A stretch of 57,466 nucleotides of DNA from a virus: positions 1 to 57,466 of the IMG/VR virus record IMGVR_UViG_3300048026_000121. One strand, 5' to 3'. The position numbers were made by a program, and so were the translations under genes. The notes below the pieces were generated by a model that was not told where the DNA came from, did no database searches, and saw only the letters and a list, made by a program, of their open reading frames with translations. Below, piece by piece: positions 7,126 through 47,042 of the stretch. Within the stretch, counting starts at the first letter, position 1. Each line of letters begins with the position of its first letter.

Positions 7126-7446
7126 CTATTTGCTCATTGCCATCTTGTTGCCCATTGGTTTACCAGCCATGTAAGCTGTTGCACCCATGTATGCTGCTAC
7201 TACACCTGTTTGGGCTATGTAGAATAAACCTAGTAGGTCAGCTAAAGCTGCTACTCTTGAATCTGACATCATTGGGGTAAACAAATAGACTGTGAAACCA
7301 ATCATCATCAGCATTGCTACCCAGGCCATCTTCTTCTGGGACTCTGCTTTCTCTTCACGTAGCTCTATTTCAAGCATACGTTCCTTCATAGCTACTTCTT
7401 CTGCTGTGACCTTACCATCACCATCAACATCAAAGTCTACTACCAT
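7126..7446 (-). CDS. EF-hand membrane protein, holin candidate
   Basis: 106 aa. Residues 6-17 (DVDGDGKVTAEE) form a canonical 12-residue EF-hand loop with Asp at 1, 3 and 5, Gly at 6 and Glu at 12. A charged helix follows, then two membrane segments (about 39-60 and 65-93) and a short basic tail. The pairing of a calcium-binding loop with a two-TM hairpin directly upstream of the endolysin suggests a holin whose triggering might respond to calcium. EF-hand small membrane proteins occur in marine phages, but the role is unproven. Confidence 0.75.
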   Translation of the reverse strand: MVVDFDVDGDGKVTAEEVAMKERMLEIELREEKAESQKKMAWVAMLMMIGFTVYLFTPMMSDSRVAALADLLGLFYIAQTGVVAAYMGATAYMAGKPMGNKMAMSK

Positions 7447-7700
7447 TATTCCCAGTCCCTTTTCCTGTCAGGATCTAGTACGTCCTGCTTCCTGAGCATA
7501 CCTTCAAGGTACATTGCTCTTTCCATTCTATCTAATGAGACCCAGTGACCTGTAGATTCATAGTAAGCCCTACGAACATAGAAGACATCTGACCTAGGGA
7601 TATGTACCCTACGTAATTTCTTCTCGTTTTTATCAGCTAAGGCTTGGTAGAACTCTTCAAGTACTGAGTCTGACTCAAAGTACTTTATTCTTTTGTTCAT
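7446..7700 (-). CDS. First gene of the minus-strand unit, unknown
   Basis: 84 aa, soluble, charged (MNKRIKYFESDSVLEEFYQA onward, with RRVHIPRSDVFYVRRAYYES and a Trp near each end of the C-terminal half). No family recognised. It is the first gene of the leftward unit, immediately next to the control region. It overlaps the EF-hand gene by TAATG, so it may set that gene's translation. Confidence 0.7.
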   Translation of the reverse strand: MNKRIKYFESDSVLEEFYQALADKNEKKLRRVHIPRSDVFYVRRAYYESTGHWVSLDRMERAMYLEGMLRKQDVLDPDRKRDWE

Positions 7701-7944: not shown

Positions 7945-8140
7945 CCCCCCATTGAGACAATCTGCCACAGTATATCCCCCAGGATGTAACAAACAGTGTA
8001 ATATATTGAAACATTACGTTACTTATTTAAGTAAAACTGGTTAACATACCTTACCAATTCCCACCTAATTGAAAATACCCCCCCGCTGTCATTGGGCATA
8101 TATGTATAACGCCATACCCCCCAGTGGCCCATGCGCCCCC
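7945..8140. repeat. Five oligo-C tracts
   Basis: Runs of C occur at 7945-7950 (6), 7976-7980 (5), 8078-8084 (7), 8117-8122 (6) and 8136-8140 (5), most preceded by ATA or AT. In AT-rich surroundings such a cluster is not expected by chance. It could give G-rich structures on the other strand or a protein-binding array. Confidence 0.5.
7953..7967. repeat. TGAGACAATCTG(C/T)CA motif, copy 1
   Basis: TGAGACAATCTGCCA here matches TGAGACAATCTGTCA at 12330-12344, with one difference in 15 nt. Both copies lie in the non-coding gaps of the early strand, so this is a candidate regulatory element. Confidence 0.5.
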
Positions 8141-8206
8141 GATTAACGGTTAAGGCTCTGTTATACATTCAGAAATTACAATATGTTTATTCAACCTATA
8201 GGAATA

Positions 8207-8308
8207 TAGTTTAATGTTAAATCAATTGGTTTAAAGCTAAACTATTATGGGAAAAAAGTAGTTTAACGTTAAACTATTTCTCTATGAATTTCATTTAGCA
8301 TTAAACTA
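8207..8308. repeat. Four TAGTTTAA-NN-TTAAACTA palindromes
   Basis: Four 18-bp sites at 8207-8224, 8227-8244, 8259-8276 and 8291-8308. The third (TAGTTTAACGTTAAACTA) is a perfect palindrome; the others differ at a few positions. Their centres are 20, 32 and 32 bp apart, so all face nearly the same side of the helix. This is the look of a cooperative repressor/activator or initiator binding array. Confidence 0.8.
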
Positions 8309-8314
8309 TTGGGG

Positions 8315-8388
8315 TGTGATCACAAAATACACTAGGCAACTACACTTTGTGATCACATTTCTGGTGGTCATCTCTATTTGTGATCACA
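8315..8388. repeat. Three TGTGATCACA palindromes
   Basis: Perfect 10-bp palindromes at 8315-8324, 8348-8357 and 8379-8388, centre spacing 33 and 31 bp. They continue the phasing of the TAGTTTAA array (20 bp from its last centre). The spacer-free form differs from a CRP site, which keeps six bases between TGTGA and TCACA. The last copy is about 40 bp upstream of a TATAAA/TATAAT box. Confidence 0.8.
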
Positions 8389-8413: not shown

Positions 8414-8425
8414 TATAAATATAAT
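8414..8425 (+). promoter_or_regulatory. Candidate early promoter -10 region
   Basis: TATAAATATAAT sits just downstream of the palindrome array and about 180 nt before the first rightward gene. No consensus -35 is visible, which would fit activation by a protein bound at the palindrome centred near 8383, about 41-42 bp before a start at ~8425. Tentative. Confidence 0.35.
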
Positions 8426-8606
8426 ACGCTCATTCTGGAACGAATCAGGAACATTGATGTTTCAGTAGAACAAAATAGAAACATAAATAAAAATACTAAA
8501 AAAGAATTGTTTGTTTTCAATAACTTATAAAATAGTTTGGTGAAGTGTATTGCAAAGTGAATAACAATAGAACAATTATTAATCATCGAAACAAGGAAAC
8601 GAGAAA

Positions 8607-9191
8607 ATGAGCTACATCAAAAACATTCTTGCAATCTATGATCAAGCTGATCAATCAGAAATGGCGCATGGATTGAACTGGTATTCTGATGCTAAAATTG
8701 CAGCATTTGAAATTGCTGATAAGTATCAAATGCCATTGTCCATTGTTGTTGGTGTGATTGCAGCGTTATCCCCAACAAATAAATGGGAAAGAAATATTGT
8801 TGATGCTGATAAGCTGATCGAATGTTTTGTTAATGGTGGATATATGGAAGATATCAATGTCTGTACCTATAAAACAATGAAAGAAAAAGCTTGGAATATT
8901 ATGGTGGAAAACAATCCCTTGGTGGATCACATTGTTAAGCTTTTAAATGGGCCAAAGATAACTGATTTTTTCCTATGTATCCTAGGCCATGACGTTTGCG
9001 TAATTGATGGACATGCATGGTGCATTGCAAATGCTGATCGCAGAACATTGCAAGAAGTGCCCAATATTGGGAAGAAATTGCGCAAGGAATTGCAGGATGC
9101 ATACGCTGCTGCAGGTGCAAGCCAAGGTGTGACAGCCTATGAAATGCAAGCAATCACATGGGTTGCATGGAAACGTATTTATAACGTGTAA
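8607..9191 (+). CDS. First early gene; possible HhH nucleic-acid protein
   Basis: 194 aa with a good AAGGA site. I know similar uncharacterised phage proteins by the VVGVIAALSPTNKWERN core (about 48-64). The segment VCVIDGHAWCIAN (about 130-142) echoes the conserved Asp-containing VDTHV motif of HhH-GPD DNA glycosylases. The next stretch, VPNIGKKLRKEL, resembles a helix-hairpin-helix loop, although the order of the two is reversed from that family. A DNA-binding or base-processing role is thus possible but unproven. First gene of the early unit. Its codon choice (many TTG, ATT, GCA) looks different from the replication genes. Confidence 0.75.
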   Translation: MSYIKNILAIYDQADQSEMAHGLNWYSDAKIAAFEIADKYQMPLSIVVGVIAALSPTNKWERNIVDADKLIECFVNGGYMEDINVCTYKTMKEKAWNIMVENNPLVDHIVKLLNGPKITDFFLCILGHDVCVIDGHAWCIANADRRTLQEVPNIGKKLRKELQDAYAAAGASQGVTAYEMQAITWVAWKRIYNV

Positions 9192-9724: not shown

Positions 9725-9970
9725 ATGACATATCAAGAAGCACTAGAACAAGTTGAGACAATGCAGGGGCGTGTTGCCTACAAAGAACGTCAAATCCAGA
9801 GCCTAATCAATCAGCATGGGCAAGGTGTCAGACCATCGTGGGTGTCAACTGACCTAGCAATCTACAGCCAACAGATGCAGGACTACACAAAGCAATTATC
9901 GTATGCTGAATATGTTGTTGCCCACTACGAGGCAGCGCAGGATGCACTAGCAGATCAGGAGGGTGAATAG
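9725..9970 (+). CDS. Small helical early protein
   Basis: 81 aa from ATG 9725, preferred because AGGAA lies 6 nt upstream; an in-frame ATG at 9707 is possible. Mostly helical and Gln-rich with coiled-coil character (TYQEALEQVETMQGRVAYKE). Function unknown. Confidence 0.65.
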   Translation: MTYQEALEQVETMQGRVAYKERQIQSLINQHGQGVRPSWVSTDLAIYSQQMQDYTKQLSYAEYVVAHYEAAQDALADQEGE

Positions 9971-10204
9971 ATGCAGTACAGAATAAACATTGCGAAACGT
10001 GAACAGATACGTATGCGGTATGGCAAGATGGAAGACAGCTATCGCCACTATTTCAAGATTGAAACAGACCTGTTTGGTGATGCCCTGCTGCAACTAATAT
10101 CTGAGCAGAAACAGATGTACCCTGCACCAGAATGGAACGTCACATTGTATAGGGAAACATCCTACTCTGAATTGATAGACCTAGACGAAAAGGAAACAGC
10201 ATAA
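9971..10204 (+). CDS. Small early protein, unknown
   Basis: 77 aa with a strong AGGAGGGTG site. Starts MQYRINIAKREQIRMRYGKM and is rich in Tyr and Met. Overlaps the next gene by TAATG. No family recognised. Confidence 0.65.
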   Translation: MQYRINIAKREQIRMRYGKMEDSYRHYFKIETDLFGDALLQLISEQKQMYPAPEWNVTLYRETSYSELIDLDEKETA

Positions 10205-10645: not shown

Positions 10646-11023
10646 ATGATATCTCTTAAAGAAGCACGTAAGGCAGCAGGTCTTACACAAGTTGAAGTAG
10701 CAAATTATGTACATGTAACACAAAGCACGATCTGCCAATGGGAGCAGGGTCTAAAGACAATACCAATAGACAGGCTGCGACAGCTATCCAAACTGTACGA
10801 CACCCCAATGTCGGACATCCAAGCAACTGAGGTATCAGAAGAACAATACGTCACTAGCTTAAAGGTTAATATGTCATATAGGCAACGCCACAAATTGGTT
10901 TGCGATGTGATCCATCAACTAATCACTGACTGGTACAACCCCAAGGACAGGGCAATGGCAACTAAACTAATTGAGAATATCTCAAACAGTAAATTGAAAG
11001 AATACATGGAAGGAGTAAAGTAA
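10646..11023 (+). CDS. Xre-family HTH regulator
   Basis: 125 aa. Residues about 3-60 form a Cro/CI-type helix-turn-helix (LKEARKAAGLTQVEVANYVH, then TQSTICQWEQGLKTIP), a DNA-binding fold that normally represses promoters. The C-terminal ~60 residues are helical and probably dimerise. ATG 10646 is preferred over an upstream TTG (10634). It is a natural candidate for binding one of the palindrome types in 8207-8388. No CI partner or integrase is seen, so it more likely times early genes than maintains lysogeny. Confidence 0.85.
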   Translation: MISLKEARKAAGLTQVEVANYVHVTQSTICQWEQGLKTIPIDRLRQLSKLYDTPMSDIQATEVSEEQYVTSLKVNMSYRQRHKLVCDVIHQLITDWYNPKDRAMATKLIENISNSKLKEYMEGVK

Positions 11024-33502: not shown

Positions 33503-34273
33503 CTATACTGCTAAAGTCTGCCTAAGCTTTGTTGTATCTGCTTTAGTAAACTCTTGGTAATTACCTTTTAAATTTTCTGGGAAATCAATAAACTCTATAC
33601 TTGCACCAGTCTTGTCTGAGACCTCTAGGGCTACATCGTAAAAGCTACGAGGATTGCCTGTGCCAAAATTCCATATACCTGACTCGTCCACATCAAAGAA
33701 TCTTTGCTGATCCATTACGACTTTACCTACATGTATAAAGTCTCTTAAATACTTAGGGGAACCCTTGAAGATCTTTATCTTCCCAGTCTTCTTAGCCTGT
33801 TCCATAAACTTGGCGAAGGGGCTTGCTTGGTTTCCTTTATGTTCCTCGTGGGGACCATGTACGTTGAAGTATCTAAATATTTGAGTAGTGATATCAGCAT
33901 TTCTAAACTCTATATACTTTTCAAACAGTGCCTTACTACGAGCATAGTGGTTCTGAGGATCAACAGGAGATGTCTCCTTGAAGTCTGACTTTAGTCCATA
34001 GACTGAAGCACTAGAAGCAAACTGAAACTTAACATTGTTTTTAATACACTCTTCGTACAACTTAATACTGAACTCTACGTTCTGTCTGTAGATCTTAGAT
34101 ATATTTGTTTCAGTTGTAGAGCTAATAGCACCTAAGTGTATTACCCAGTCCAGTCCCTCTACACCAGGAAAGGACATGCCCCACTCATTCTTTACCACTT
34201 CGTGGTGAGGTGAGAGGGCATTGACCATATTCTGACCAATGAAGCCATTACTCCCAGTGACTAGTATCTTCAT
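33503..34273 (-). CDS. HldD-like ADP-heptose 6-epimerase
   Basis: 256 aa, SDR-type sugar nucleotide epimerase. Rossmann start GSNGFIGQN (about 8-16), the catalytic Ser region FASSASVYG, and YARSK (YxxxK). RYFNVHGPHEEHKGNQAS and FKGSPKYLRDFIHV match ADP-L-glycero-D-manno-heptose 6-epimerases rather than general galactose epimerases. It would flip C6 of the heptose, the last step of ADP-heptose synthesis. Shorter than E. coli HldD (about 310 aa). Overlaps the cupin gene by 4 nt. Confidence 0.85.
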   Translation of the reverse strand: MKILVTGSNGFIGQNMVNALSPHHEVVKNEWGMSFPGVEGLDWVIHLGAISSTTETNISKIYRQNVEFSIKLYEECIKNNVKFQFASSASVYGLKSDFKETSPVDPQNHYARSKALFEKYIEFRNADITTQIFRYFNVHGPHEEHKGNQASPFAKFMEQAKKTGKIKIFKGSPKYLRDFIHVGKVVMDQQRFFDVDESGIWNFGTGNPRSFYDVALEVSDKTGASIEFIDFPENLKGNYQEFTKADTTKLRQTLAV

Positions 34274-34626
34274 GCCTGACTGTCACCTTTTGCTACTCTG
34301 TAATTATCTTCTACAGAATCAGGAGTAGAGACCTCTAGGATTGTTCCCTCTTCTAAGCAAATGATTTGATGAGGTACAAGAGTCGGGTTCGTCCAGGCAT
34401 CGCCCTCACCCAAGGACTCAACGTGTGTGGTGGCGTCTTCTGTGTCGATCCAAAGAACCTCAAACTTGCCAGATAGAACGTACCAACTTTCCTTCTTATC
34501 TTTGTGGAAGTGCATAGAGAATTTAGCACCAGTATTAAAAGATAAAAACTTACTACAATACTCGTCATTTGTTACCCATATAAGTTCAGAACCCCAGCCC
34601 TTCTTAACGAAGCCTTCAAGTCGCAT
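34270..34626 (-). CDS. Cupin, sugar isomerase-like
   Basis: 118 aa single cupin barrel. MHFHKDKKESWYVLSGKFEV carries the metal-binding His-x-His and Glu, and VPHQIICLEEGTILEVSTP the second His motif, as in the cupin half of type II mannose-6-phosphate isomerases and small sugar-phosphate cupins. It lies between the kinase and epimerase genes, overlapping both (11 and 4 nt). It could isomerise or epimerise a heptose intermediate; substrate unknown. Confidence 0.8.
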   Translation of the reverse strand: MRLEGFVKKGWGSELIWVTNDEYCSKFLSFNTGAKFSMHFHKDKKESWYVLSGKFEVLWIDTEDATTHVESLGEGDAWTNPTLVPHQIICLEEGTILEVSTPDSVEDNYRVAKGDSQA

Positions 34627-35374
34627 GTTGTGTTACCTCTGCTAGTGTAGGAGCATATACTCCTCTGTGTTGGACAGTTATGGCTGCTGCATCCATTGCA
34701 AACTTTATAGCCTTGTCTATATCATAAGTATCTAGATAGTTGAATACAAGACCTGCAAGGAATGTATCTCCTGCACCACACACATCATGAGTTTCTACAC
34801 TAGGGGGTAGGTAAGTTCTGTTCTTATACTCGACTTTCTTTGAGCCGTATGTGACGATCAGATCGTCTGTTAGTGTTTCTGCTGCCTCCAGTTCATACTG
34901 GTTTATCTTTACGAAGCAGCCATCAAACTGAGCTAAGTTGGTCTTCTTAGTATCTACAAAGATAGGGCCGTTATACTTAGCTCTGAAATCTTTTATGTCA
35001 CCTTCGGCTACAAACCCTTTGTTGTAGTCTGAGATAACAACAGCATCATACATACTTACGTCTTCGTCTGCTGTATCTATGTGCTCAGTCTTAATCTTTT
35101 CATCTACTCTGATCAGTTGCTGACCAGTCTTATCTTCAATGTACCTGTGCTTACGCTCTCTGTACTCTGTTATGATGTCTACCCTAGTCCCTAGGTTCAC
35201 TAAGTTGTTGTAGACGTTATAGGCCATGCCTCTTTTGATTACAGAAGATACAAGATCAAAGACAGGGACAGGAGCCTCTGGGCTTATTCTTGATACAGTG
35301 CCTGTGTGATATTCATCATAGCAACTGTCGCCTAGTAATAAAATCTTCGATTGTTTTTGTGGTAGACTGCCCAT
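34616..35374 (-). CDS. HldE-type heptose-7-phosphate kinase
   Basis: 252 aa PfkB/ribokinase-family enzyme. KILLLGDSCYDEYHTG (about 10-25), RISPEAPVPVFDL (HldE hallmark, about 30-42), GQQLIRVDEKI, and the anion-hole motif CGAGDTFLAGL (about 204-214). Adds phosphate at C1 of heptose 7-phosphate. Shorter than the E. coli kinase domain (about 315 aa). Its 5' end overlaps the nucleotidyltransferase gene by 59 nt in a different frame, so the essential first strand is dual-coded. Confidence 0.9.
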   Translation of the reverse strand: MGSLPQKQSKILLLGDSCYDEYHTGTVSRISPEAPVPVFDLVSSVIKRGMAYNVYNNLVNLGTRVDIITEYRERKHRYIEDKTGQQLIRVDEKIKTEHIDTADEDVSMYDAVVISDYNKGFVAEGDIKDFRAKYNGPIFVDTKKTNLAQFDGCFVKINQYELEAAETLTDDLIVTYGSKKVEYKNRTYLPPSVETHDVCGAGDTFLAGLVFNYLDTYDIDKAIKFAMDAAAITVQHRGVYAPTLAEVTQHAT

Positions 35375-35726
35375 TGGTTCTCTCGTAGAATACTATTTCT
35401 TTGCAGTACTCCTCCCCAAGTATTGTCTTCCCTTTCCAATCAGATCCTTTTACCATTACATCAGGCTGATAAGCTTTTATAATACCTACCAAGTCCTCGT
35501 CTGTATCAAATACTCTGACACTATTGACAGGCTTCAACATAGACATTATATGTTTACGTATTGACAAAGTATTGAAAGGTCTCCCAGTACCCTTGTTATA
35601 CTCAATACGACTGTCTGTGTCAATAGCTACTAACAAATGACCACCTAACATCCCTGCAAAATCAAGGAGATCTAGGTGCCCAGAGTGCAGTACATCAAAT
35701 GCACCATTAACAAAAACTTTCTTCAT
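35316..35726 (-). CDS. HldE-type heptose-1-phosphate adenylyltransferase
   Basis: 136 aa nucleotidyltransferase. VNGAFDVLHSGHLDLLDFA has the HxGH active-site motif. VAIDTDSRI, then PDVMVKGSDWKGKTILG, and QSTTKTIEDFITRR match the C-terminal domain of HldE. Joins heptose 1-phosphate to AMP. In E. coli the kinase precedes this domain in one chain; here they are two overlapping genes in the opposite order. It starts 17 nt from the divergent phosphatase gene. Confidence 0.9.
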   Translation of the reverse strand: MKKVFVNGAFDVLHSGHLDLLDFAGMLGGHLLVAIDTDSRIEYNKGTGRPFNTLSIRKHIMSMLKPVNSVRVFDTDEDLVGIIKAYQPDVMVKGSDWKGKTILGEEYCKEIVFYERTNGQSTTKTIEDFITRRQLL

Positions 35727-35743
35727 GAGGTAAAGATCCTAAT

Positions 35744-36391
35744 ATGTCCAGATTTAAACATATTATTTCACAAGAACCAAGTCAACAACCTCAACAAGAG
35801 TTACCGCCAGATTGGCCTACAGTCTTCCCTAAGTCTATTGTAGGTCTAGATCGTGATGGTGTTATCAACGTAGACAAAGGACACTACATTACAGATCCTG
35901 AAGACTTTGAGGTGTACCCTGAGTCCTTAGCAGCTATCCACAAGTTACGTATCAAAGGATACAAAGTGGTAATATTAACTAACCAGGGTGGTATTACCAA
36001 GGGACTACAAACACATGAGCAGGTAGAAGCTGTACACCAACGTATGTTTGAAATGTTTGGACAAGCAGGTATCTACACTATTGATGGTCTCTTCTACTCT
36101 GAGTCTTCATTAAAAGAAGACATGTATGCCAAACCTAATCTAGGTATGTTTCACAGAGCAGAGAAAGAAATCTTTGGTGGAAAGACTAGGTTCAAAGACA
36201 AAGGTTTCTATGTGGGCGATAAGATGTCTGACCTTAAAGCTGCTGAGAGAATTGGTGCCACCCCAATCTTAGTAAGAACTGGTCATGGGGTGGACACTGA
36301 AGGAGAGCTAAAGAAGTTCTCAAAAGAGAAGTTAAGAAAGAAGACTAAGGTTTTCGATAACCTCCTCCAATTTGTGGATAGGCTACCTTAG
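35744..36391 (+). CDS. GmhB-like heptose-bisphosphate phosphatase (inverted gene)
   Basis: 215 aa HAD phosphatase. IVGLDRDGVINVDKGHYITD (about 32-51) with the Asp nucleophile, VVILTNQGGITKG, KPNLGMF and YVGDKMSDLKAAERIG are the GmhB/histidinol-phosphatase set. It would remove the C7 phosphate of heptose bisphosphate. The four-residue Cys/His zinc site of E. coli GmhB is absent: FYSESSLKEDMYAKP stands in its place. It is the only sizeable rightward gene in the leftward late unit. It has just 17 nt ahead of it and overlaps the carbamoyltransferase 3' end by 4 nt. Confidence 0.85.
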   Translation: MSRFKHIISQEPSQQPQQELPPDWPTVFPKSIVGLDRDGVINVDKGHYITDPEDFEVYPESLAAIHKLRIKGYKVVILTNQGGITKGLQTHEQVEAVHQRMFEMFGQAGIYTIDGLFYSESSLKEDMYAKPNLGMFHRAEKEIFGGKTRFKDKGFYVGDKMSDLKAAERIGATPILVRTGHGVDTEGELKKFSKEKLRKKTKVFDNLLQFVDRLP

Positions 36392-38103
36392 GCAGCCTTT
36401 TCCTCTACTTCTTCAACTACTGAGTCATTGTAAGGATACTTCACCAACAGACCTTGTTCTGGTAGGTACAAGTAATTTATGTCTGAGTTCTTAATAGTTC
36501 TCATTGCATCGTCTAGTGTTTCTACCAGTGGCTCACCTGCTAAGTTAAAGCTGGTGTTGAACAAAATAGGTACACCAGTAATCTTACGGAACTCATCAAT
36601 CAAAGTGTGATACGTTCCATTCTGCTCTTTAGTCACAGTCTGAATACGGCAAGTACCGTCTACGTGTGTGATAGCTGGGCACTCTCCATGCTTCTCTAAC
36701 TTGAAGTCCATTGCATACATCATGAATGGTGACTCTTCCATACCGTAGGTATCAAACCATTCCTCAAAGTGTTCCTGCATCATAGAACCTGCAAAGGGTC
36801 TAAACCACTCACGTCCTTTGACCTTGTTCACAGTGTCCTTGCCATCAGGGTCTGTGGGATCGTACAGGATAGAACGATTCCCTAGTGCACGAGGTCCAGC
36901 CTCAGAACGTCCTTGGTACAAAGCTACAATATTCTTCTCAGAGATAAGCTTTGCTACATCAGCAGGTTTTACTTCCTCAGTTTCAATGTCGCCAAAGTCA
37001 TAAGACTCTTCACGTTCAGGACCAAGATACAAAGTGTCTAGTGGACGAATAGTTTTGTCTTTTGTTTCTGTGTAGTGCACTAGCTGTGCTAGACCGATTG
37101 CTGTACCACCATCATGAGAGATAGGATCAACATAAATGTTAAGGTCAGGGAAACGTTTCTTGTAGTAGTAGTTTGCTACGCAGTTAAGACCATAACCACC
37201 TGCAATGACGATGTTCTTTTTACCAGTCATTGATACAGCTTTTTCAATCAAGTCACCTACAAGAGTTTGTGTTTCGTCTTGTACTGCCCAAGCTAAATTC
37301 TTAGCTGCATCTGTAACTTTACTAGGATCGTTATGCCAAGCACGAGGATCTTCAGTCAAGGTTAAGTAGGGGTGGCGAGTATGATCAATATGAGCACCAG
37401 CAGGATAGTTAGGGACAAAAACATTCTTGTTACCTCTACCATTAAAGAACAGGCTGGGGATCATCTCATCATACGTACCGTATGGTGCAAGACCCATTGT
37501 CTTACCTGCTTCAATAAAACCAAAGCCTAGGTATTCTGATACAGCTTCGTATCCTTTAACAAGTGTGATGGCATTGTCCATTTCAATGTTTTCAGAAGTA
37601 ATTCTTTGGGTATCATAGTTACCACCAAAGGCTTGGAATACAGGTTTAATACCTTCTTCGTAGTCACAGTTAAAGATAGTCTCTGTCTCAAACCCTGGGT
37701 TCTTTTGACCCTCTTCATTTATTTGGACCTCTTGACGTGTACCAGATCCGTCTACAATAACAGCAGCAGCATCTTCAAAACCTGAGTTGTAGAAAGCTGC
37801 AGAAGCATGTCCAAGGTGGTGGATATGTCCTAAGTTGATTACTTGTACGTTTGGATAAAACTTACGAACAAGACCAGAATAAGGATCTTCACCAGTCCAA
37901 GGTAGTTGTGGGAACTGTGAATGTGTTCCACCTAAAACAATGACATCAATCCCATAGTGAATTGCTTCAAGGATACCTTTGTATGGGTTGCCATCATATT
38001 TACTACGAGACAGACGTTCTTCTTCAATGTAGAACTTAATCTCACCATCTACTAACAAAGCAGCAGAACCATTATGACCTGGGTTAATTGCTAGGATATT
38101 CAT
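36388..38103 (-). CDS. NodU/CmcH-family carbamoyltransferase
   Basis: 571 aa, full length. The N-terminal half binds the metal and carbamoyladenylate with NPGHNGSAALLVDG (about 7-20), EEERLSRSKYD and HHLGHASAAFYNSGF with the key histidines. The C-terminal YrdC-like half has GRSEAGPRALGNRSIL (about 399-414) and FNTSFNLAGEP. Transfers a carbamoyl group from carbamoyl phosphate to a hydroxyl, usually of a sugar. Next to a heptosyltransferase and heptose genes, a carbamoyl-heptose is the likely product. Confidence 0.93.
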   Translation of the reverse strand: MNILAINPGHNGSAALLVDGEIKFYIEEERLSRSKYDGNPYKGILEAIHYGIDVIVLGGTHSQFPQLPWTGEDPYSGLVRKFYPNVQVINLGHIHHLGHASAAFYNSGFEDAAAVIVDGSGTRQEVQINEEGQKNPGFETETIFNCDYEEGIKPVFQAFGGNYDTQRITSENIEMDNAITLVKGYEAVSEYLGFGFIEAGKTMGLAPYGTYDEMIPSLFFNGRGNKNVFVPNYPAGAHIDHTRHPYLTLTEDPRAWHNDPSKVTDAAKNLAWAVQDETQTLVGDLIEKAVSMTGKKNIVIAGGYGLNCVANYYYKKRFPDLNIYVDPISHDGGTAIGLAQLVHYTETKDKTIRPLDTLYLGPEREESYDFGDIETEEVKPADVAKLISEKNIVALYQGRSEAGPRALGNRSILYDPTDPDGKDTVNKVKGREWFRPFAGSMMQEHFEEWFDTYGMEESPFMMYAMDFKLEKHGECPAITHVDGTCRIQTVTKEQNGTYHTLIDEFRKITGVPILFNTSFNLAGEPLVETLDDAMRTIKNSDINYLYLPEQGLLVKYPYNDSVVEEVEEKAA

Positions 38104-38104
38104 T

Positions 38105-39031
38105 TTACTTCACCTTCTTTTCGATATCTTTTACGATGTCAGCATAAATACTGTTTATCTCTTCGTCTGTAAACTCAACAGTTACTTCATTAACTCTATC
38201 TGCTAAGTGTGACTCAAGACCTGAAATACGTATAGGTGAGTAAACTTTAGGAACAGCCCTTTCAATTATATTAAAGTAATTTGGGTATGTAGTATTTATA
38301 GGGAAAGTAGATCCTATAATTACTGAACCAGGTTTATTAAGTGCCCTTGCCATATGCTGACCTACAGAATCACAACCTACAAAGTAATCTGCTGCATCAA
38401 TAAAGGATGACCACATACGAAGGTCTGCTTCAGGCTTCATGGTGTATGTGTCTTCAGGCATCCAGAAGTTTTTTTCAGCAAACAAAACCAGATTGTATTT
38501 CGTTGCTAGTTTCTTTACTAGTTTAAGATACGTATCTGGATTAATAGAACGAGAAGATTGATCTAGTAAAACACCTTCCTGTGGTTTCTCAATGGATCTA
38601 CCAAAAGGTTGTATGACAATAGTCTTTTGCTTTTGTTGTTGCTGTCTTACTTGCTGCATAAAGTTAGCAGCATTCAATTCCTCTTGTCTATTTGTTTTAA
38701 GGACAGGAGCACCAAGATCAGAGTGGTCATCAGTCTCATTGATCAAGTAATCAAAAGCTTCAGCAAGAGACTTCTCTTGTTTATAGTAGCCTGGAACTCT
38801 GTATGGTTCTGGAGAGATTACTCTGTCAGCATCCATAAAGAATTGATCCATTGATCCCTTTTGGTCTGGGTTAAATACTTTATCATGTAGCTCAGGGATA
38901 CCCCAGTACAAAGAGTCCCAACCCATGACCATAACTCTAAAGTCTTTATCTTTTTTAGAGTACTTGATAAGAGCAGGAATAGCTGCTATAGCTCTACCTG
39001 CACCACCATCAATCATAAAAACAGTTTTCAT
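38105..39031 (-). CDS. GT9 heptosyltransferase-like glycosyltransferase
   Basis: 308 aa, similar to WaaC/WaaF length. N-terminal Rossmann half (MIDGGAGRAIAAIPALIKYS). The C-terminal nucleotide-binding part has KTIVIQPFGRSIEK, SINPDTYLKLVKKLATKYNL and FVGCDSVGQHMARALNKPGS, matching the GT9 block (usually VGxDxGxxHLAxALxxP). Would transfer heptose from ADP-heptose to an acceptor: host LPS core or a virion protein. AAAGAAGAAG precedes the ATG. It lies between the Cys-rich tail gene and the carbamoyltransferase. Confidence 0.82.
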   Translation of the reverse strand: MKTVFMIDGGAGRAIAAIPALIKYSKKDKDFRVMVMGWDSLYWGIPELHDKVFNPDQKGSMDQFFMDADRVISPEPYRVPGYYKQEKSLAEAFDYLINETDDHSDLGAPVLKTNRQEELNAANFMQQVRQQQQKQKTIVIQPFGRSIEKPQEGVLLDQSSRSINPDTYLKLVKKLATKYNLVLFAEKNFWMPEDTYTMKPEADLRMWSSFIDAADYFVGCDSVGQHMARALNKPGSVIIGSTFPINTTYPNYFNIIERAVPKVYSPIRISGLESHLADRVNEVTVEFTDEEINSIYADIVKDIEKKVK

Positions 39032-39103: not shown

Positions 39104-42100
39104 TTAACAAGAACAAATAATTCCTTCATTATACAACCTTAAAGCACCTTCGTAGTAGCCTTCTCCAGCATTTAACTTGTGAGGAGCTTTAGCATTAAGG
39201 GCAGAAGGTGAATTGTATGAAGGTGCTGAAAAATTATTATTAATTCTCAAGTAACATGCATATCTTTTTGTTGCATCTCTATGTAAATGGCAAGGTTTGA
39301 TACAGCAGAATATCATGTTAGAATGACATGCAATACCTTGTCTGTAAGGATTACAACATGTTAATCTGTAATGACAACGAACACATTCATGATCATAGAA
39401 TTGATATAGCTGAGTACACAGACCAGTACCACTAAAAAGACCTCCACAAAGACAAGTACAATGGTACATACCTATGGTTTGATTCATCATGTATGTTCTG
39501 GTTATATTGAACATACAGCAGCATTGCATGGTAGCCCCACCTGAAATAGCATGTGGGCAGAAACAACCTCCATAACACAATCTACAGAATCCTGGGAAGA
39601 ACATATAGTTTGAATCACCAAAACCAAATGTACAAGCATTAAACTGCATTCTGCAAGCTGCACTTGCTGAGAATGGGTGATAGGCTAAAGATCCTAACCA
39701 TCTTATATTCCAAAAGTTCTTCATGATTTCGGATGTATTCCAACCAATACATTCTAGAGGAACATTGAATGGTGCTTTCATTCTTCCTGTTTCTGGGATA
39801 ACTTGCATAATACAGCCATTACATCCACCATATAGAGAAGCACAAGCACCTGTACACAGACACCCAAAGTACTTACTACTACCTATACAGCAGCATTTTG
39901 CTGGCATAATACCACAGTGATTAAAGCAACAAACCCCACCCATAATGAACTGGACGCCACCTACGTCACTTGAATGATCCGACCCATATGTTGTAAAGTC
40001 TAATCCGATTGTTCGGCAGTTTGTACAACCGATGCAAGCTCCAACAACCCCTTCAAACTGTAAACAGTGTCTTAGGCAACAGCAGAGTGTTGGGTCAACA
40101 AACTTACAGTTTACACACTTATCAGTTGAAGGCCAGAGTTGATTAACCTTACTAACACAGCAATTAGTTAAGTCAAAGCATATGGCTCCAAGCCACATAA
40201 AGGTACTTCCAAAGGTGAAACATGTACACGTACCACAGGCAAGAATACCACCTATAAAGACTAGATGATCAGTGCAACAGTTGTAGTACCAGTTTGGTCT
40301 ACAGAAGTTTCCTGTACCAACCAAGTTTAAGTTTGTACCGTTACACCCCCCAAAAGTACCCCAAGTAAAGTGGAAATCGTGTCCTTGGCAATGAGCCAAA
40401 AGACTTGTAGCACAACACCCAGTTATTGCTTGAATACAAGCTGCTACAGTACACTTTGGGCAAGCATCATTGTTACCAAGCCAGAGCCTACCTGCAATGT
40501 CACAAGGAGTACAACCACAATTACACAAATGCATTGGGCTTGAAATATACCATTTAGCCATATGTCTTCTGGCATCTTGAGACTGAATCATTGCGTAGAA
40601 GTTGATACTACACTCAATTTGACAAGTTGATTTATTAAATACTGTATAGACAGGTGTATTTCTACTTGCTTGATCACAATAGCTAGTGTGGGAGTTATAG
40701 TCTCCATTACCAAACATGAGAAGTCTGTTAGCACAAGTAGGGTGTTGTATGATATCACCATGAGTAGTTGGGTCCATCATTGGAACACCACCTGGGCATG
40801 TGTAAACAGAAATCTTACCAGTATCATAAAGAGCACAACGAGTTCTGTCTCTATTTCTACCAACACTACCCTGGGAAGTGAACCCCATCATGCAGAATAT
40901 TCTTTCTGTAGTTGGGTAACAGTTTGTTAGGAATACACACCCTTTGCAACACATCCAAGGCATCATGCACTTAGGTTGAATTGGTGACCAGTACTGGAAA
41001 GATTTATGAGGTCTGCAGAATTTAGTAATAATTAAAGTACAATGTGTTTCAAATCTACATGAACAACCACTACATTGGAAAGCACATGCAGGGGAGTATG
41101 CACAAAGACATGGGAAACACAGCCAGTCAAACATCCATAAAACATCACCATCACAGTCCCAATGCTTCATACCTGAGTTATACCCACCTGCTGTACCTCC
41201 AGGCACACACAACGCAGTTTGACCTGTGCAGGATGCTGGGTAAAGAGTAAGCCACATATTAGGGCAGCAACGAGGATCAAATGATTTTATACATATACCA
41301 TCACAACTTTTTGGGCATTTTGCAGTGTACATGCCTTTATTCCAAATACTAGGAGGACCACTAATGTCAGTCCTACTAGTAAACCAAGGCATCAGACAAC
41401 CTGCTACTCCACCTGTTCCATAACAAATAGACCCAAGACCATCTACTTTTAGGTTTAAACAATTATAACATGGCTTATAACAAGTATTTTGCCAATGGAA
41501 TGGGTAAGGATTTATAGGTCTACCACTATGAGTAAAGAAAGCATAATCACAAACCTCCTCTTCAGGTCCACCTAAAGCTGAGTTTGTACATGCTAGATAA
41601 ATTAAAGGGGGTGCTAAGTAAGGGTGTGCACCAGCAGAAGAACCTGGTGCAGACAGTGGCATTGAGATCATTGGCCCCAAACAAGAAGTTGCCTCAAAGT
41701 AAGAAGGAGCAAAGAAAGGTCCAATATCAATACCTTGTGTACAAGTACAACAGCAAAATGCTGCTATTTGACCTGTTTTACTGTAAACACCACCCTTTTT
41801 AGTGATGACTGCTTCTTCCCAGTCTTGTCTGTGTTCATAACAAGCTACTGCGTATTGTTTTTGTTGGTGCTTTGTATAAATACTACCATCAATCATTGGC
41901 TGATATGTTCCACAAAGTGCGTGGCAAGGCCATAGATTGTTATTTTCGTAACCAAGCAGACAAGGTATATTTCTACATCTACAGCCCCAAGGTTTAACCC
42001 AAGTGTATGCACAGCCCTGCCCTAGACCACAGCACGTACAAACAACAACTTCACCAGTGGTATACTTTACTTCTCCAGGTACATCAGGTCTCCATGCTCC

Positions 42101-42532
42101 AATACAACTGTTAAGGCTGCATCTCCAATTCGTATAGGTGCCAGTAATGTAGAATGGCATTCTCATTCCTGGAGAGGCGTAAAGGTTATTATTTAGAGTT
42201 TGATCATATGGGCATCTAGCAGTTTCATCACACTTACAGAAATTTGATCTGACCGTCATATACATTGTAGAGTAGTAGTCGTTAGAGAACTCATCTGTCT
42301 CTAGCCCACCACCACCAACTGAAGCCCATTCAGTACCGTTGTACGAGATAAGAGAACCTAGGTCTGTATCAAAATAGATAGACCCAGTAGCAGGAGAACC
42401 AGGTCTCTGGGCTGTCGTCCCACTAGGGGCATCCATACGTGAACTAGCTGTAATACAACACGAGGTAACACAACAGGCACAGACGTTCCTGCTGTTATCG
42501 ACCACCGTAGTGCCATTAATCTTATATGCCAT
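39104..42532 (-). CDS. Giant cysteine-rich tail-associated protein
   Basis: 1142 aa, GGAG site 8 nt from the ATG. Residues about 1-75 are a tail-attachment-like module (GTTAQRPGSPATGSIYFDTD, LISYNGTEW) shared with the adjacent 71-aa protein. The remaining ~1060 residues contain about 120 of the 126 cysteines I count (11% overall), as CC, CCC, CxC and CxxC, among many Gly, Trp, Tyr, Met and Phe and few charges. No family is recognised. The last ~60 residues (HRDATKRYACYLRINNNFSA onward) are cysteine-poorer. It lies after the S74 fibre, so a distal receptor-binding or decoration protein is most likely. Possibilities include a disulphide-knit or metal-binding adhesin. Confidence 0.85.
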   Translation of the reverse strand: MAYKINGTTVVDNSRNVCACCVTSCCITASSRMDAPSGTTAQRPGSPATGSIYFDTDLGSLISYNGTEWASVGGGGLETDEFSNDYYSTMYMTVRSNFCKCDETARCPYDQTLNNNLYASPGMRMPFYITGTYTNWRCSLNSCIGAWRPDVPGEVKYTTGEVVVCTCCGLGQGCAYTWVKPWGCRCRNIPCLLGYENNNLWPCHALCGTYQPMIDGSIYTKHQQKQYAVACYEHRQDWEEAVITKKGGVYSKTGQIAAFCCCTCTQGIDIGPFFAPSYFEATSCLGPMISMPLSAPGSSAGAHPYLAPPLIYLACTNSALGGPEEEVCDYAFFTHSGRPINPYPFHWQNTCYKPCYNCLNLKVDGLGSICYGTGGVAGCLMPWFTSRTDISGPPSIWNKGMYTAKCPKSCDGICIKSFDPRCCPNMWLTLYPASCTGQTALCVPGGTAGGYNSGMKHWDCDGDVLWMFDWLCFPCLCAYSPACAFQCSGCSCRFETHCTLIITKFCRPHKSFQYWSPIQPKCMMPWMCCKGCVFLTNCYPTTERIFCMMGFTSQGSVGRNRDRTRCALYDTGKISVYTCPGGVPMMDPTTHGDIIQHPTCANRLLMFGNGDYNSHTSYCDQASRNTPVYTVFNKSTCQIECSINFYAMIQSQDARRHMAKWYISSPMHLCNCGCTPCDIAGRLWLGNNDACPKCTVAACIQAITGCCATSLLAHCQGHDFHFTWGTFGGCNGTNLNLVGTGNFCRPNWYYNCCTDHLVFIGGILACGTCTCFTFGSTFMWLGAICFDLTNCCVSKVNQLWPSTDKCVNCKFVDPTLCCCLRHCLQFEGVVGACIGCTNCRTIGLDFTTYGSDHSSDVGGVQFIMGGVCCFNHCGIMPAKCCCIGSSKYFGCLCTGACASLYGGCNGCIMQVIPETGRMKAPFNVPLECIGWNTSEIMKNFWNIRWLGSLAYHPFSASAACRMQFNACTFGFGDSNYMFFPGFCRLCYGGCFCPHAISGGATMQCCCMFNITRTYMMNQTIGMYHCTCLCGGLFSGTGLCTQLYQFYDHECVRCHYRLTCCNPYRQGIACHSNMIFCCIKPCHLHRDATKRYACYLRINNNFSAPSYNSPSALNAKAPHKLNAGEGYYEGALRLYNEGIICSC

Positions 42533-42562: not shown

Positions 42563-42778
42563 TCAAACCCATTCGGTTCCGTTGTAAGAAACTACTGTGC
42601 CTAAATCTGTATCAAAAAAGATATGACCTGTATTTGGTGAACCAGGTCTCTGTGCTGTTGTACCAGAAGGTATAGTGAGGACGTTAGCTGATACTATCGT
42701 CCCCTGTACTGAAGGTGTTCCTGAAGGAATGTTTTTACTGTCGTCAATAACAGTTGTGCCACTAACCTTTAGAGCCAT
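42563..42778 (-). CDS. 71-aa tail module protein
   Basis: 71 aa: MALKVSGTTVIDDSKNIPSG, then GTTAQRPGSPNTGHIFFDTD and VVSYNGTEWV. It is a stand-alone copy of the N-terminal module of the Cys-rich protein downstream, without cysteines. The start lies inside the S74 fibre 3' end (17-nt overlap). Similar GTTAQRPGSP modules are common in marine phage tail fibres. Possibly a linker or capping protein, or a remnant of a duplicated fibre. Confidence 0.75.
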   Translation of the reverse strand: MALKVSGTTVIDDSKNIPSGTPSVQGTIVSANVLTIPSGTTAQRPGSPNTGHIFFDTDLGTVVSYNGTEWV

Positions 42779-45700
42779 TCTCTAGTTCCTCTACTTTACC
42801 TTGTAGACACTTCACAGTTTCAATGAGTGCACCTACCAAGCCATTATAGTTGACTGATTTGTAACCATCGTCATCTGTTATAACAAGTTCTGGGAATGCT
42901 TCTTCTACTTCTTGAGCAACAACACCCATTGTGTATTTACCAGAATCTTTCCAGCTATAGTTTACACCTCTGATCTGACCGATCTTGCAGTAAGCATCTT
43001 CTACTGTAACAATGTTGTCCTTGCATCTGCAATCAGAAGTAGAGTTGAAGTCAACAGCACAAGCTACGTTAGTTCTAACGGCAGATACACCACAAACAAT
43101 GTTAGCCTTTACACAACACTCTACACAGTGGCAGTTCTCTGTTCTTGCACCGTAGGAGGTAGTACATAACATAGCTGTGTTATTAAAGAGCAAGCACACG
43201 CCACTATTACATGTACCTTTCCACATCCATTCGTTAGTAACATCATTATAGATACCAACAGAATCAGCATTGCCCATGAATACCCATTTGTCTTCAATGG
43301 AGTACCCAGGCCAGTTACCATCACCACCTACAACAGAGATAGAGCCGTAGGTACCTCCTGATTGACAGATACATCTGCCACCTACTGCAAGCCAAGTACC
43401 ACCACAGATAATTGGGGATAGTACACAGGTAGTACCACATACTTTAGGAGCTTTAACACAACAAGAAGCACAGGAACATGTAACAAATGAATAGGGGGAT
43501 TTAAAGCAATTAGCAGCACAGATACATGCACCATTAAAGTTGTTAGATGTAGAGCCATTCGTTGCAGCTTTACCTGACAAACATGTTGCTAGTCCATCAA
43601 CGTTAGCTACTGTGTGGTTGTGGCTATCGTCTGCAATAGTAAGGCTAAGGTTAGCATTACCAAGGTTTGTGAATGTAGCAGAACCTGTAGCATCTCCACA
43701 GATACAAAGTGTAGGATCAGAAGTAGCAGTCGTATTGACTGTGAAGTTACCTGAACCATCTACTGAAGTAGAACCTGTTACTGCACCACAGACACACAGT
43801 GTTCTAGCAGTAGCCCAAGCACTTGCTGTGTCAGCATTACCAGTAACAGCACCTGTGACAGGAGCACATACTCTGGCAAATGTTACTGTATCAGATGTGC
43901 CTACTGCTTGTCCAATGTTAATTCCATTACCATCAACAGTAACACCTGTACCTGCATCAGCAGTAAAAGTTGTACCAGTTAAGGTAAGACCATTACCTGC
44001 ATCGTAAACAGCAGTCTCAGCTACGACAGTAAAGGTAATGTTTGTTGTACCGAATGTTATAACACCAGATGTGTTCATAACATAAAGTTCACCAGAACCA
44101 GTGTTACCTTCTTTTACGAAGAATGCATCACCTTCACCTAGTGCATCTTGGTCTGAAGCACCATAGCTGTCAGCATCTGTAGCACGAGTAAGAACCCAGT
44201 TAGTCGAAGCTGAACCAGTGTTGGTAACTGTGTAGACACCATTCTCGTAGCCATTGGTTTGGCTGTAGATAAGAACACGATCATTTGTGTTTAGTGTTAC
44301 ACCATCAATAACTAGGGCAGCTTGTGCCCCATTGTTAGTAAGGGTAGCACCTACACCATTCGTACCATTGTCGTAGGTAGCACTTAGGTTACCTGCACTG
44401 TCTGGTGATTCAACTCGTACTGGATCGTGATAGTGAATACCAGCAGCAGCAATCGTATCAACGTACTCTTTAGTTGCAAGTTGACAAGCCTGAGTTGGGT
44501 TACCTGTAACACAGACAGATCCAAAGCATACATTGTCTGATGTGCCAACAGCCTGTCCAATAGCTATTGCACCAGATGTGTAAGTAACACCTGTACCACC
44601 TGATAGGTGGCTGTCTACTCTAGCTGTTGTAAAGTACTGGTTTGTACCTTCCGCTAGGTCATCTGTGTCATGGTTACTTATATCACTTACAGTACCAGTG
44701 ACATCACCATTAACATTTCCTGTCAGTGTTCCATATAGGCTAGAGACACAAACAGCACCTGTACCGTAGATGCAGTTAGTACCTGCATTAAGATTGCCAC
44801 CAAGAGCAGGAGAAGAATCCCCTGCAACACATGTAAGAGCATCACCTAGTGTGAATGCTGCAGAAGACCATGCCGAACCATCATACACTCTTAGAGCATT
44901 GTCGGTGGTGTTCCAGTATAATGCACCAGTAATAAGTCCATCACCATCGTTGTCTACTGATGGGTCTGAAGCTTTATCACCAAGGTATCTGTCATCAAAG
45001 TCATCATAAGAAGTAGCTGCATTTGTTGCTGAAGTAGCAGCAGCAGTAGCTGAGTTAGAAGCATTTGTTTCCGATGTAGCTGCAGCAGTTGCACTATTAG
45101 CAGCACAAGTAGCTGAAGTGGCTGCATCTGTAGCTGACTGGAGAATACCATCAACATAAGTCTTCGTAGTCAAATCAGCAGCATCAGTAGGTGTATAAGT
45201 CGTAGTGATCTTATTGGCACCCATATCAATAGTGCCAGTTACAGTACCACCAGAACAAGCTAGTCTTGTATCACGTTGAGTATCTGTGTATGTCTTTGTG
45301 GCTGCATCTTGTGCTAGGGTAGGATCGCCCAGTCCTGTGATCTTTGATGTACCCATAGCAATAGCACCCGACATGGTTCCACCAGTCAGATTTAGCTTTA
45401 GAGCATCTTGATCATCTACATAACCCTTACGAGTAAGAGTATCAGCAGTAGCAGGTGTAGCTGTAGATGTAGCTTTATTAGAACCTAATGCAATGTCACC
45501 AGTCATTGTGCCACCAGCCAATGGTAGCTTACCTGCAATGCTTGTTGTTATTGTTGTACTAAAGTCTGGGTCATCCCCAATAGCTGCAGCAATCTCGTTA
45601 AGAGTATCTAGTGTGCCTGGTGCAGAGTCAATCAAATTAGAAACAGAGGTATCTACATACCCCTTCGTTGCAGCATCTGCATCAGCAGTTGGAGTTGCAA

Positions 45701-47042
45701 GAGAAGTAATTTTTGCAGAACCCATATCAAGTCCTGCTGTACCTGTCATGTTAATATCACAGAAAGTAGAAGTACCTACTGAGGTTACATCACCAGTTAG
45801 ATCACCTGTTACGTTCCCTGTAACTGCACCTGACACATCACCTGTGACATCCCCAACAAAACAAGTGTTAGCTGTAATGGTTGTACCAGTTATAGCATCA
45901 GGCGTGGTAGCACCAACTACACCATCAAAGTTTCCTGTGTGACAACCTACTGCATTACCAGTTAGGTTGCCTGTTACATTACCTGAAACAGCACCAGTAA
46001 CATCACCTACGAAGCAAGTGTTAGCTGTAACTGTTGTACCTGTTATAGCACCTGCTGTAGTCCCACCAATAGTAGCACCGTCAATAGTGCCCCCATTGAT
46101 ATCGACTGAAGAAAAAGTACCCTGTCCTGTCGTACTAACTGTAGTAAAGCTACCTGCAGCAGCACTAGAAGCACCGATAACAGTGCCATCAATATTACCT
46201 GCATTGATATCTACTGTGGCTAGAGTTGCTGTACCTGTGGCAGAAAGGTCTGGTACAGTTACTGTATCACCAAAACCTGCAACACCTGTAACACCAAGTG
46301 TACCTGCCAGTGTAGTATTTCCTGTAATTCCTGCAGTTCCACCAACAGTAAGGTTACCACTAGAGCCAAGAGTTGTAAATTCACCAGAGGCAGCAGTCGT
46401 ATTACCAATTATAGTACCATCAATAGTACCACCATTAATGTCTGCTGTGTCAGCTACAAGGCTGTCAATATTTGCTGTTCCAGTAATGTAAGCATCATTC
46501 CACTCACTACCTGTAGCACCTAGATCATATGTTGCATCTGCAGAAGGGATAAGGTCTGAGGCAACATCAGCATTTACTGTAACAGTATCACTATCGTCAC
46601 TACCAAGAGTAGTATTCCCATTAACGGTAAGGTTACCCGTAATAGTAGCATTCTCGTGAATCGCCAGAGTGTCGATATAACCCACACCATCAATGTAAAG
46701 ATCTTTAAACTCAGCAGCCGAAGAACCCAAATCAATATCTTCATCAGTGACAGGAACAATAGCTCCATCTTGTATCCTTACCTGCTCTACTGCTGCATTA
46801 CCAACGTTAGTAAAGAAATTAATTCTGTTGTTAGCTGTATCAACAACAACTTTACTATACTGGTTAGTGTCTGAAATTAGAGGAATGAGGCCACCTTCTC
46901 CAGTAGAAGTGCCATCATGTCTGTGACCTGTGCTTGCACTAAATGCTGCTACAAGCTGTTCAAATTCATTGTGTACTGGTTCAGCTTTAATAACCTGACC
47001 AGAAACAATATCAGCAGCACTTTGTCTTGTATAACCTGCCAT
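42762..47042 (-). CDS. Tail fibre with S74 self-cleaving chaperone
   Basis: 1426 aa. The N-terminus (MAGYTRQSAADIVSGQVIKA; SASTGHRHDGTST) is a virion-attachment domain common in marine podovirus fibres. A long beta-repeat shaft follows (TVTGDVSG/GNLTGN-type units). The C-terminal ~95 residues are an intramolecular chaperone/peptidase S74 domain (SDCRCKDNI, YSWKDSGKYTMGVVAQEVEE), which trimerises the fibre and then cuts itself off. Unusually, cysteines appear within canonical repeats (ANTCFVGDVTG twice, ARTLCVCGAVTG, PTLCICGDATG) and cluster heavily before S74 (CSCASCCVKAPKVCGTTCV). Probably binds the host receptor. Confidence 0.92.
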   Translation of the reverse strand: MAGYTRQSAADIVSGQVIKAEPVHNEFEQLVAAFSASTGHRHDGTSTGEGGLIPLISDTNQYSKVVVDTANNRINFFTNVGNAAVEQVRIQDGAIVPVTDEDIDLGSSAAEFKDLYIDGVGYIDTLAIHENATITGNLTVNGNTTLGSDDSDTVTVNADVASDLIPSADATYDLGATGSEWNDAYITGTANIDSLVADTADINGGTIDGTIIGNTTAASGEFTTLGSSGNLTVGGTAGITGNTTLAGTLGVTGVAGFGDTVTVPDLSATGTATLATVDINAGNIDGTVIGASSAAAGSFTTVSTTGQGTFSSVDINGGTIDGATIGGTTAGAITGTTVTANTCFVGDVTGAVSGNVTGNLTGNAVGCHTGNFDGVVGATTPDAITGTTITANTCFVGDVTGDVSGAVTGNVTGDLTGDVTSVGTSTFCDINMTGTAGLDMGSAKITSLATPTADADAATKGYVDTSVSNLIDSAPGTLDTLNEIAAAIGDDPDFSTTITTSIAGKLPLAGGTMTGDIALGSNKATSTATPATADTLTRKGYVDDQDALKLNLTGGTMSGAIAMGTSKITGLGDPTLAQDAATKTYTDTQRDTRLACSGGTVTGTIDMGANKITTTYTPTDAADLTTKTYVDGILQSATDAATSATCAANSATAAATSETNASNSATAAATSATNAATSYDDFDDRYLGDKASDPSVDNDGDGLITGALYWNTTDNALRVYDGSAWSSAAFTLGDALTCVAGDSSPALGGNLNAGTNCIYGTGAVCVSSLYGTLTGNVNGDVTGTVSDISNHDTDDLAEGTNQYFTTARVDSHLSGGTGVTYTSGAIAIGQAVGTSDNVCFGSVCVTGNPTQACQLATKEYVDTIAAAGIHYHDPVRVESPDSAGNLSATYDNGTNGVGATLTNNGAQAALVIDGVTLNTNDRVLIYSQTNGYENGVYTVTNTGSASTNWVLTRATDADSYGASDQDALGEGDAFFVKEGNTGSGELYVMNTSGVITFGTTNITFTVVAETAVYDAGNGLTLTGTTFTADAGTGVTVDGNGINIGQAVGTSDTVTFARVCAPVTGAVTGNADTASAWATARTLCVCGAVTGSTSVDGSGNFTVNTTATSDPTLCICGDATGSATFTNLGNANLSLTIADDSHNHTVANVDGLATCLSGKAATNGSTSNNFNGACICAANCFKSPYSFVTCSCASCCVKAPKVCGTTCVLSPIICGGTWLAVGGRCICQSGGTYGSISVVGGDGNWPGYSIEDKWVFMGNADSVGIYNDVTNEWMWKGTCNSGVCLLFNNTAMLCTTSYGARTENCHCVECCVKANIVCGVSAVRTNVACAVDFNSTSDCRCKDNIVTVEDAYCKIGQIRGVNYSWKDSGKYTMGVVAQEVEEAFPELVITDDDGYKSVNYNGLVGALIETVKCLQGKVEELENGSKG

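Follow-up and report, generated by a model that had tools for sequence, protein, structure and literature searches.

A phased array of palindromes resembling host carbon-regulator operators in a CRP-9/HMO-2011-type phage

Lambda-like phage repressor arrays comprise several phased palindromes between divergent units. We describe here an array with the same arrangement, located at positions 8207 to 8388 of IMG/VR virus record IMGVR_UViG_3300048026_000121, a viral DNA of 57,466 nucleotides that was analyzed at its full length and is called the window below. It differs from lambda-like switches in that its binders appear to be host proteins and no conserved phage repressor stands alongside. The borrowing of a host regulator by a phage is already known in principle: cyanophages carry Pho boxes, some of which are bound in vitro by host PhoB (excerpts of PMC10976474), as well as NtcA sites (excerpts of PMC3037559). 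These are likewise marine phages with host nutrient-regulator sites on their own genes, but their sites concern phosphorus or nitrogen regulators and individual gene promoters, whereas here two central-carbon operator types form one phased array, in the main divergent region and in unrelated phages.

The two kinds of palindrome most closely resemble the operators of the host regulators AkgR and CceR/GapR (RSP_1663, LacI family). We take RSP_1663 to be CceR. AkgR operators of Rhodobacteraceae, which serve a GntR/FadR-type activator of tricarboxylic acid (TCA) cycle genes, share the core GTGATCAC in hosts and phage and occur in hosts as helically spaced pairs or triples before the mdh-suc and sdh genes; the phage has three copies 31–33 bp apart, in contrast to the usual 21 bp in hosts, and its copies are joined to a second operator type. 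In Rhodobacter sphaeroides, GTGATCAC is a motif among AkgR binding sites, a GntR-like regulator is linked to it in Pseudomonas too, and AkgR is termed an activator (excerpts of PMC6365646). RSP_1663 has been given the motif [AGT]GTT-N6-8-AAC[ACT], and malic enzyme, PdhAB, and Mdh are among its predicted targets (excerpts of PMC4344238). The other phage sites fit [AGT]GTT-N8-AAC[ACT], and similar host copies precede malic enzyme and pdhA; the phage copies stand in arrays of two to four, whereas most host copies are single.

We consider it reasonably probable that host regulators of carbon metabolism control phage transcription through the array, which would act as a composite, phased operator. 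This reading is based on the motifs, their phasing and conservation, their identity with host operators, and their recurrence in unrelated phages, all of which were observed. In the open-access literature searched, we found no description of the use of these two carbon regulators, of such a phased and composite form, of the location, or of the occurrence across unrelated phages. Within that literature, publications on CceR, AkgR, host factors at phage promoters, and roseophage control regions yielded none tying AkgR or CceR to phages, and a search for the 10-mer TGTGATCACA returned nothing on microbial gene regulation, judged by titles.

Layout and helical phasing of the array

The array comprises the following sites:

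8207..8224, no strand: first-kind palindrome 1, TAGTTTAANNTTAAACTA with 2 mismatches; predicted CceR-type host operator
8227..8244, no strand: first-kind palindrome 2, TAGTTTAANNTTAAACTA with 2 mismatches
8259..8276, no strand: first-kind palindrome 3, perfect TAGTTTAANNTTAAACTA
8291..8308, no strand: first-kind palindrome 4, TAGTTTAANNTTAAACTA with 3 mismatches
8315..8324, no strand: second-kind palindrome 1, exact TGTGATCACA; predicted AkgR-type host operator
8348..8357, no strand: second-kind palindrome 2, exact TGTGATCACA
8379..8388, no strand: second-kind palindrome 3, exact TGTGATCACA

The original prediction, made from the letters of the window, had placed seven palindrome centers at 8215.5, 8235.5, 8267.5, 8299.5, 8319.5, 8352.5, and 8383.5, with steps of 20, 32, 32, 20, 33, and 31 bp, and all of these values were confirmed. 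The sequence it assigned to the first four palindromes, TAGTTTAA-NN-TTAAACTA, holds as a consensus and not as an exact form, only the third copy (8259-8276) being perfect (mismatches to TAGTTTAANNTTAAACTA are 2, 2, 0, and 3 in window order). At up to three mismatches, TAGTTTAANNTTAAACTA is found at exactly four places in the window, against 0.73 expected from shuffles. The last three palindromes are indeed all exact copies of TGTGATCACA, which contains GTGATCAC, and they are its only exact copies in the window. A CRP site (TGTGA-N6-TCACA) was ruled out as a candidate, the half sites in the array abutting with no N6 gap.

Motif and spacing were also sought in related phages, as had been suggested, and both are conserved, with helical phasing that holds across relatives. 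Near-identical arrays were removed before the counts of phasing, TATAAT position, and terminase group. In 99 non-redundant TGTGATCACA arrays, 139 spacings fall into the classes 20–23, 29–34, 39–46, 52–55, 64–65, and 74–75 bp, and only 13, 48, and 97 bp lie outside them. The array loci were largely found by motif searches with a spacer of 15–45 bp, which limits the TGTGATCACA spacings that could be seen; the classes 25–28, 35–38, and 49–51 bp are empty and fall within the searched range. For the 132 TGTGATCACA spacings of up to 70 bp, the vector strength at 10.5 bp is 0.65, compared with a 99.9% quantile of 0.34 under the null, which assumes uniform spacing and leaves in the data any kinship that persists after removal of near-identical arrays. 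The corresponding values for the first kind are 0.67 and 0.53 (43 spacings in 33 arrays). Unlike neighbors, for which 29 distances were measured in a selection of 29 loci carrying either kind or both, are largely in phase, with a strength of 0.52 given without a null; clear out-of-phase distances of 17 or 18 bp occur in L012, L342, L380, and L386. The earlier idea that two proteins bind next to each other along one face of the DNA thus fits two phased, conserved operator types, while its candidate binder, the phage Xre protein, is not supported (see below).

Sites of both kinds in host genomes

The host-side counts concern genomes of the family Rhodobacteraceae. A genome scan for a TGTGATCACA pair returned 101 stretches, many of them from Rhodobacteraceae, including Planktomarina. 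Sixteen genomes picked from that scan, and therefore chosen for holding a pair, have 2–36 copies of TGTGATCACA and 0–2 of a reversed control. The samples of 149 family genomes used for both motifs were not so chosen, and in the even sample a 21-bp-spaced TGTGATCACA pair occurs in 88 of the 149, with no occurrence of the control. Among the 30 second-kind family loci returned, the site stands before TCA-cycle genes in 18 (sucC, 13; sdhC, 4; sucA, 1), and 12 have no labeled gene. Labels of host genes and terminases derive from sequence signatures, inspection by eye, or BLAST, with hidden Markov model (HMM) checks on representatives; at representative loci, HMMs confirmed sucC, sdhC, mdh, and 2-oxoglutarate dehydrogenase E1. 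As expected of AkgR-type operators, all three exact TGTGATCACA copies in the window hold the palindrome GTGATCAC.

In addition, 20 GntR loci from four genomes were inspected, and TGTGATCACA is present in two (L514 and L517), where it directly precedes the GntR gene. The encoded proteins share 61% identity and both have GntR and FCD domains; each gene lies ~9 kb from its own genome's mdh-suc pair. The R. sphaeroides GntR protein RSP_0981 is predicted to control the genes for succinyl-CoA synthetase, succinate dehydrogenase, and 2-oxoglutarate dehydrogenase (excerpts of PMC4344238), and from family and targets we infer that it is AkgR. Bifidobacterium genomes, too, often contain TGTGATCACA pairs (L244, L262, L273, L289, L296, and L308-L310), which presumably serve an unrelated regulator there.

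The first-kind form TAGTTTAANNTTAAACTA is found in 21 of 149 family genomes, and the control in none. Fifteen of the 21 loci returned have a labeled gene, namely malic enzyme (9, two by eye), pdhA (4), or lpd (2), and 6 have none; the sites lie close upstream of the labeled genes, mostly at 8–41 bp. Further host sites of like context were found, again with HMM checks on representatives. The perfect phage copy (8259-8276) reads AGTT-N8-AACT and thereby matches the CceR/GapR motif, and judging from motif and targets the first-kind regulator is likely CceR. In Paracoccus denitrificans, malic enzyme drops without CceR, which is described as a repressor of glycolytic and an activator of gluconeogenic genes (excerpts of PMC11323563). 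Another CceR form, TGTTANCGNTAACA, gave four sites in 2 of 10 host genomes, none by a recognized expected target, and was rejected as defining no separate regulon.

The identity of the phage sites with host operators would also suit a decoy, the main rival explanation, in which the sites soak up AkgR- and CceR-type regulators as phage DNA multiplies and thereby alter host TCA-cycle and pyruvate metabolism, with the same binding and little effect on phage promoters. With up to seven sites per phage genome against 2–36 TGTGATCACA copies in the tested hosts, replicated phage DNA could outnumber the host sites. A decoy, however, would not need helical phasing within and between kinds, nor a fixed place upstream of the terminase unit (77 of 78 arrays, see below), and we regard it as unlikely.

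Distribution among related and unrelated phages

The window belongs to a CRP-9/HMO-2011-type phage, and the isolates closest to it are phages of Roseobacter RCA bacteria. The large terminase of the window shares 93.8% identity with that of Roseobacter phage CRP-9 and 78.7% with that of CRP-13; both of these phages infect RCA strain FZCC0023 and have structural modules of the HMO-2011 type (excerpts of PMC8528129). A TGTGATCACA pair with a spacer of 15–45 bp is present in at least 120 IMG/VR stretches, compared with 3 when the palindrome was replaced by a control whose arm had been reshuffled. Exact TGTGATCACA was found in 5 of 15 isolate records, CRP-13 (2 copies), CRP-603 (4), CRP-2 (1), CRP-1 (2), and CRP-345 (2), close to the record end and in the corresponding intergenic region. 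Both kinds occur in CRP-13; CRP-9 has only the first, as three exact cores of 14 bp. The whole window layout, M-20-M-32-M-32-M-20-T-33-T-31-T (M, first kind; T, second kind), recurs in the close relative L001.

Collectively, 6 of 11 HMO-2011/CRP-9-type roseophage isolates carry sites, compared with none of three phages of SAR11 or SAR116 hosts: neither motif occurs in HMO-2011 (SAR116 host) or two pelagiphages. The host strain is no strict predictor, as 4 of the 5 array-less type roseophages infect FZCC0040, which is also of the RCA lineage. Other palindromes were seen in these regions. In the corresponding gap of HMO-2011 (L210), two CACTTAAGTG-type palindromes at 9881-9892 and 10002-10013 lie 121 bp apart and are perhaps operators of another host regulator. 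Beside the arrays, CRP-1 and CRP-345 (L211 5809-5822, L212 6486-6499) have GTCCAAC-NN-like GTCCAACATTGGAC/GTCCAACGTTGGAC palindromes, and CRP-9 and CRP-603 (L206 6625-6637, L207 5189-5201) have AACAGGTCCTGTT/CACAGGTCCTGTG palindromes.

The arrays extend beyond these relatives. The motif and control scans gave 236 viral loci, in 92 of which fewer than 35% of proteins are similar to those of HMO-2011-type isolates, and the terminases of representative array loci belong to different PHROG families. Eight terminase queries yielded 78 non-redundant arrays whose locus also holds a terminase; these terminases form five groups whose shared identity is at most ~26% over stretches of more than 100 residues. 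For 77 of the 78, transcription of the terminase leads away from the array. Each kind is present in at least three of the five groups, and the kinds occur alone or together. Since a phage-encoded binder would have to be common to all groups, a host protein is the simpler binder.

Operators of phage repressors are often present in phage control regions, and the early unit of the window includes an Xre gene not far from the array. On that basis, phage-encoded regulators, Xre or others, might own the operators, with the host likeness due to capture or chance. An operator array of a phage repressor needs the repressor gene to be kept with it, and this is not what we found for Xre: no homologue was detected in the 15 related isolate records, in a search without a positive control, or in 21 array loci holding at least 3 kb of early region. 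Nor was a GntR gene found in the window or in seven isolate records, in a search that was positive for 12 of 14 control genomes. Moreover, both motifs recur in unrelated phages and mark coherent host regulons. Ownership by phage regulators therefore seems very unlikely to us, and it is more likely that the array binders are host proteins than phage Xre.

Genome setting and proposed control

The placement between divergent units was borne out by the gene map of the window. The array sits in a gap of ~900 bp between a leftward unit, which starts with the gene at 7446-7700 and extends to the terminase genes, and a rightward early unit, which starts with the DUF7178 gene at 8607 and includes primase-helicase, DNA polymerase A, and ssb-like genes. 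The relevant features are:

7446..7700, minus strand: first gene of the leftward unit, 84 aa, function unknown; array-linked in many relatives
8420..8425, plus strand: TATAAT, read from sequence; candidate -10 box for a rightward promoter that has no good -35
8607..9191, plus strand: DUF7178, first sizeable gene of the rightward early unit
10646..11023, plus strand: Xre (HTH_3) protein, the binder proposed earlier; not conserved with the array

The 84-aa product has no Pfam or PHROG match. The TATAAT lies 39 bp, center to center, past the last second-kind site, and relatives show a modest bump in TATAAT position 20–40 bp beyond their arrays.

An origin complex had also been envisaged for the array, and a packaging site can be added to it; the palindromes would then be initiator or terminase sites. 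The repeated sites in a long AT-rich gap, the change in sign of the GC skew at the array, and the position of arrays upstream of terminase genes would suit such a role. However, transcription turns at the same place, so the skew is uninformative on an origin, and nothing else specific speaks for one; several close relatives have no arrays, and the same motifs precede host metabolic genes. We consider an origin or packaging complex highly improbable.

Under the composite-operator reading, the three TGTGATCACA sites would be bound by a host AkgR-type GntR/FCD activator of the mdh-suc and sdh TCA-cycle genes, and the four TAGTTTAA-NN-TTAAACTA sites by the host protein that governs malic enzyme, pdhA, and lpd, for which LacI-type CceR is the likeliest candidate. 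The proteins would line up on one face of a ~180-bp segment lying where the leftward lysis/packaging unit and the rightward early unit diverge, and would jointly regulate one or both phage promoters, such that phage transcription would follow the carbon and energy state of the host. One option is action on the rightward promoter, where the distance of the TATAAT from the last AkgR-type site may allow an activator to work at a promoter that lacks a good -35 box. The other is action on the leftward unit, which is suggested by the position of arrays across phages, with the terminase transcribed away from them. Binding itself, the paralogue that binds, and the sign and direction of control are what we infer. 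With AkgR as an activator and CceR as a repressor or activator, the array could therefore integrate two carbon signals.

Several points weigh against this reading. Neither motif is present in CRP-3, CRP-207, CRP-212, CRP-235, and CRP-738, or in SIO1, ICBM1, P12053L, and CRP-4 to CRP-7 (0 of 7; cobaviruses and other roseophages). Because 5 of 11 type isolates and all 7 other roseophages are without arrays, the array is dispensable for growth on such hosts. TGTGATCACA stands upstream of other GntR genes too, and AkgR is thus not the sole candidate paralogue. The CceR assignment is less sure because RSP_1663, named GapR and given a 20-bp palindrome, has a target list without pdhA or malic enzyme (PMC4052901); exact first-kind sites were seen at malic enzyme and pdhA, and not at the glycolytic and gluconeogenic targets of that study. 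A consensus promoter scan, which was uninformative, returned no strong promoter and did not report the TATAAT at 8420..8425. Finally, predicted phage Pho boxes are considered unreliable without binding tests (excerpts of PMC10976474).

Other elements of the same gap include four copies of a C-run element (ATACCCCCCAG-like) at 7972-8141, left of the array. A repeat like GAACGAATCAGGAAC with GAATC (a GANTC site) lies at ~8437-8455 of the window, ~6613-6660 of L206, and ~6215-6275 of L209; it is near the array in several relatives and present even in array-less CRP-207. Elsewhere in the window, 39104-42532 (minus strand) encodes a predicted protein of 1142 residues that is extraordinarily cysteine-rich, with many CC and CxC pairs, and the next large protein (42762-47042) has a cysteine-rich end. 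Within the structural unit, the sugar-nucleotide-like gene block at 33503-39031, in which epimerase-like, cytidylyltransferase-like, kinase-like, phosphatase-like, and carbamoyltransferase-like genes were recognized by eye, probably represents auxiliary surface-sugar genes.

Tentatively, we propose that unrelated abundant marine phages of Rhodobacteraceae may have converged on a master switch built from host operators, in which host AkgR (TCA cycle) and CceR (glycolysis/pyruvate), bound to a single face of the DNA, would be integrated and the early/late program would track host carbon and energy state with no phage-encoded regulator. The sites, the candidate proteins, and culturable phage-host pairs (CRP-9, CRP-13, CRP-603, and others) are named here for testing, and the arrays may help to recognize Rhodobacteraceae phages by sequence in metagenomes. 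If the composite-operator reading is true, widespread ocean phages would sense host central metabolism by borrowing two global host regulators, and Roseobacter carbon flow would be directly linked to infection.
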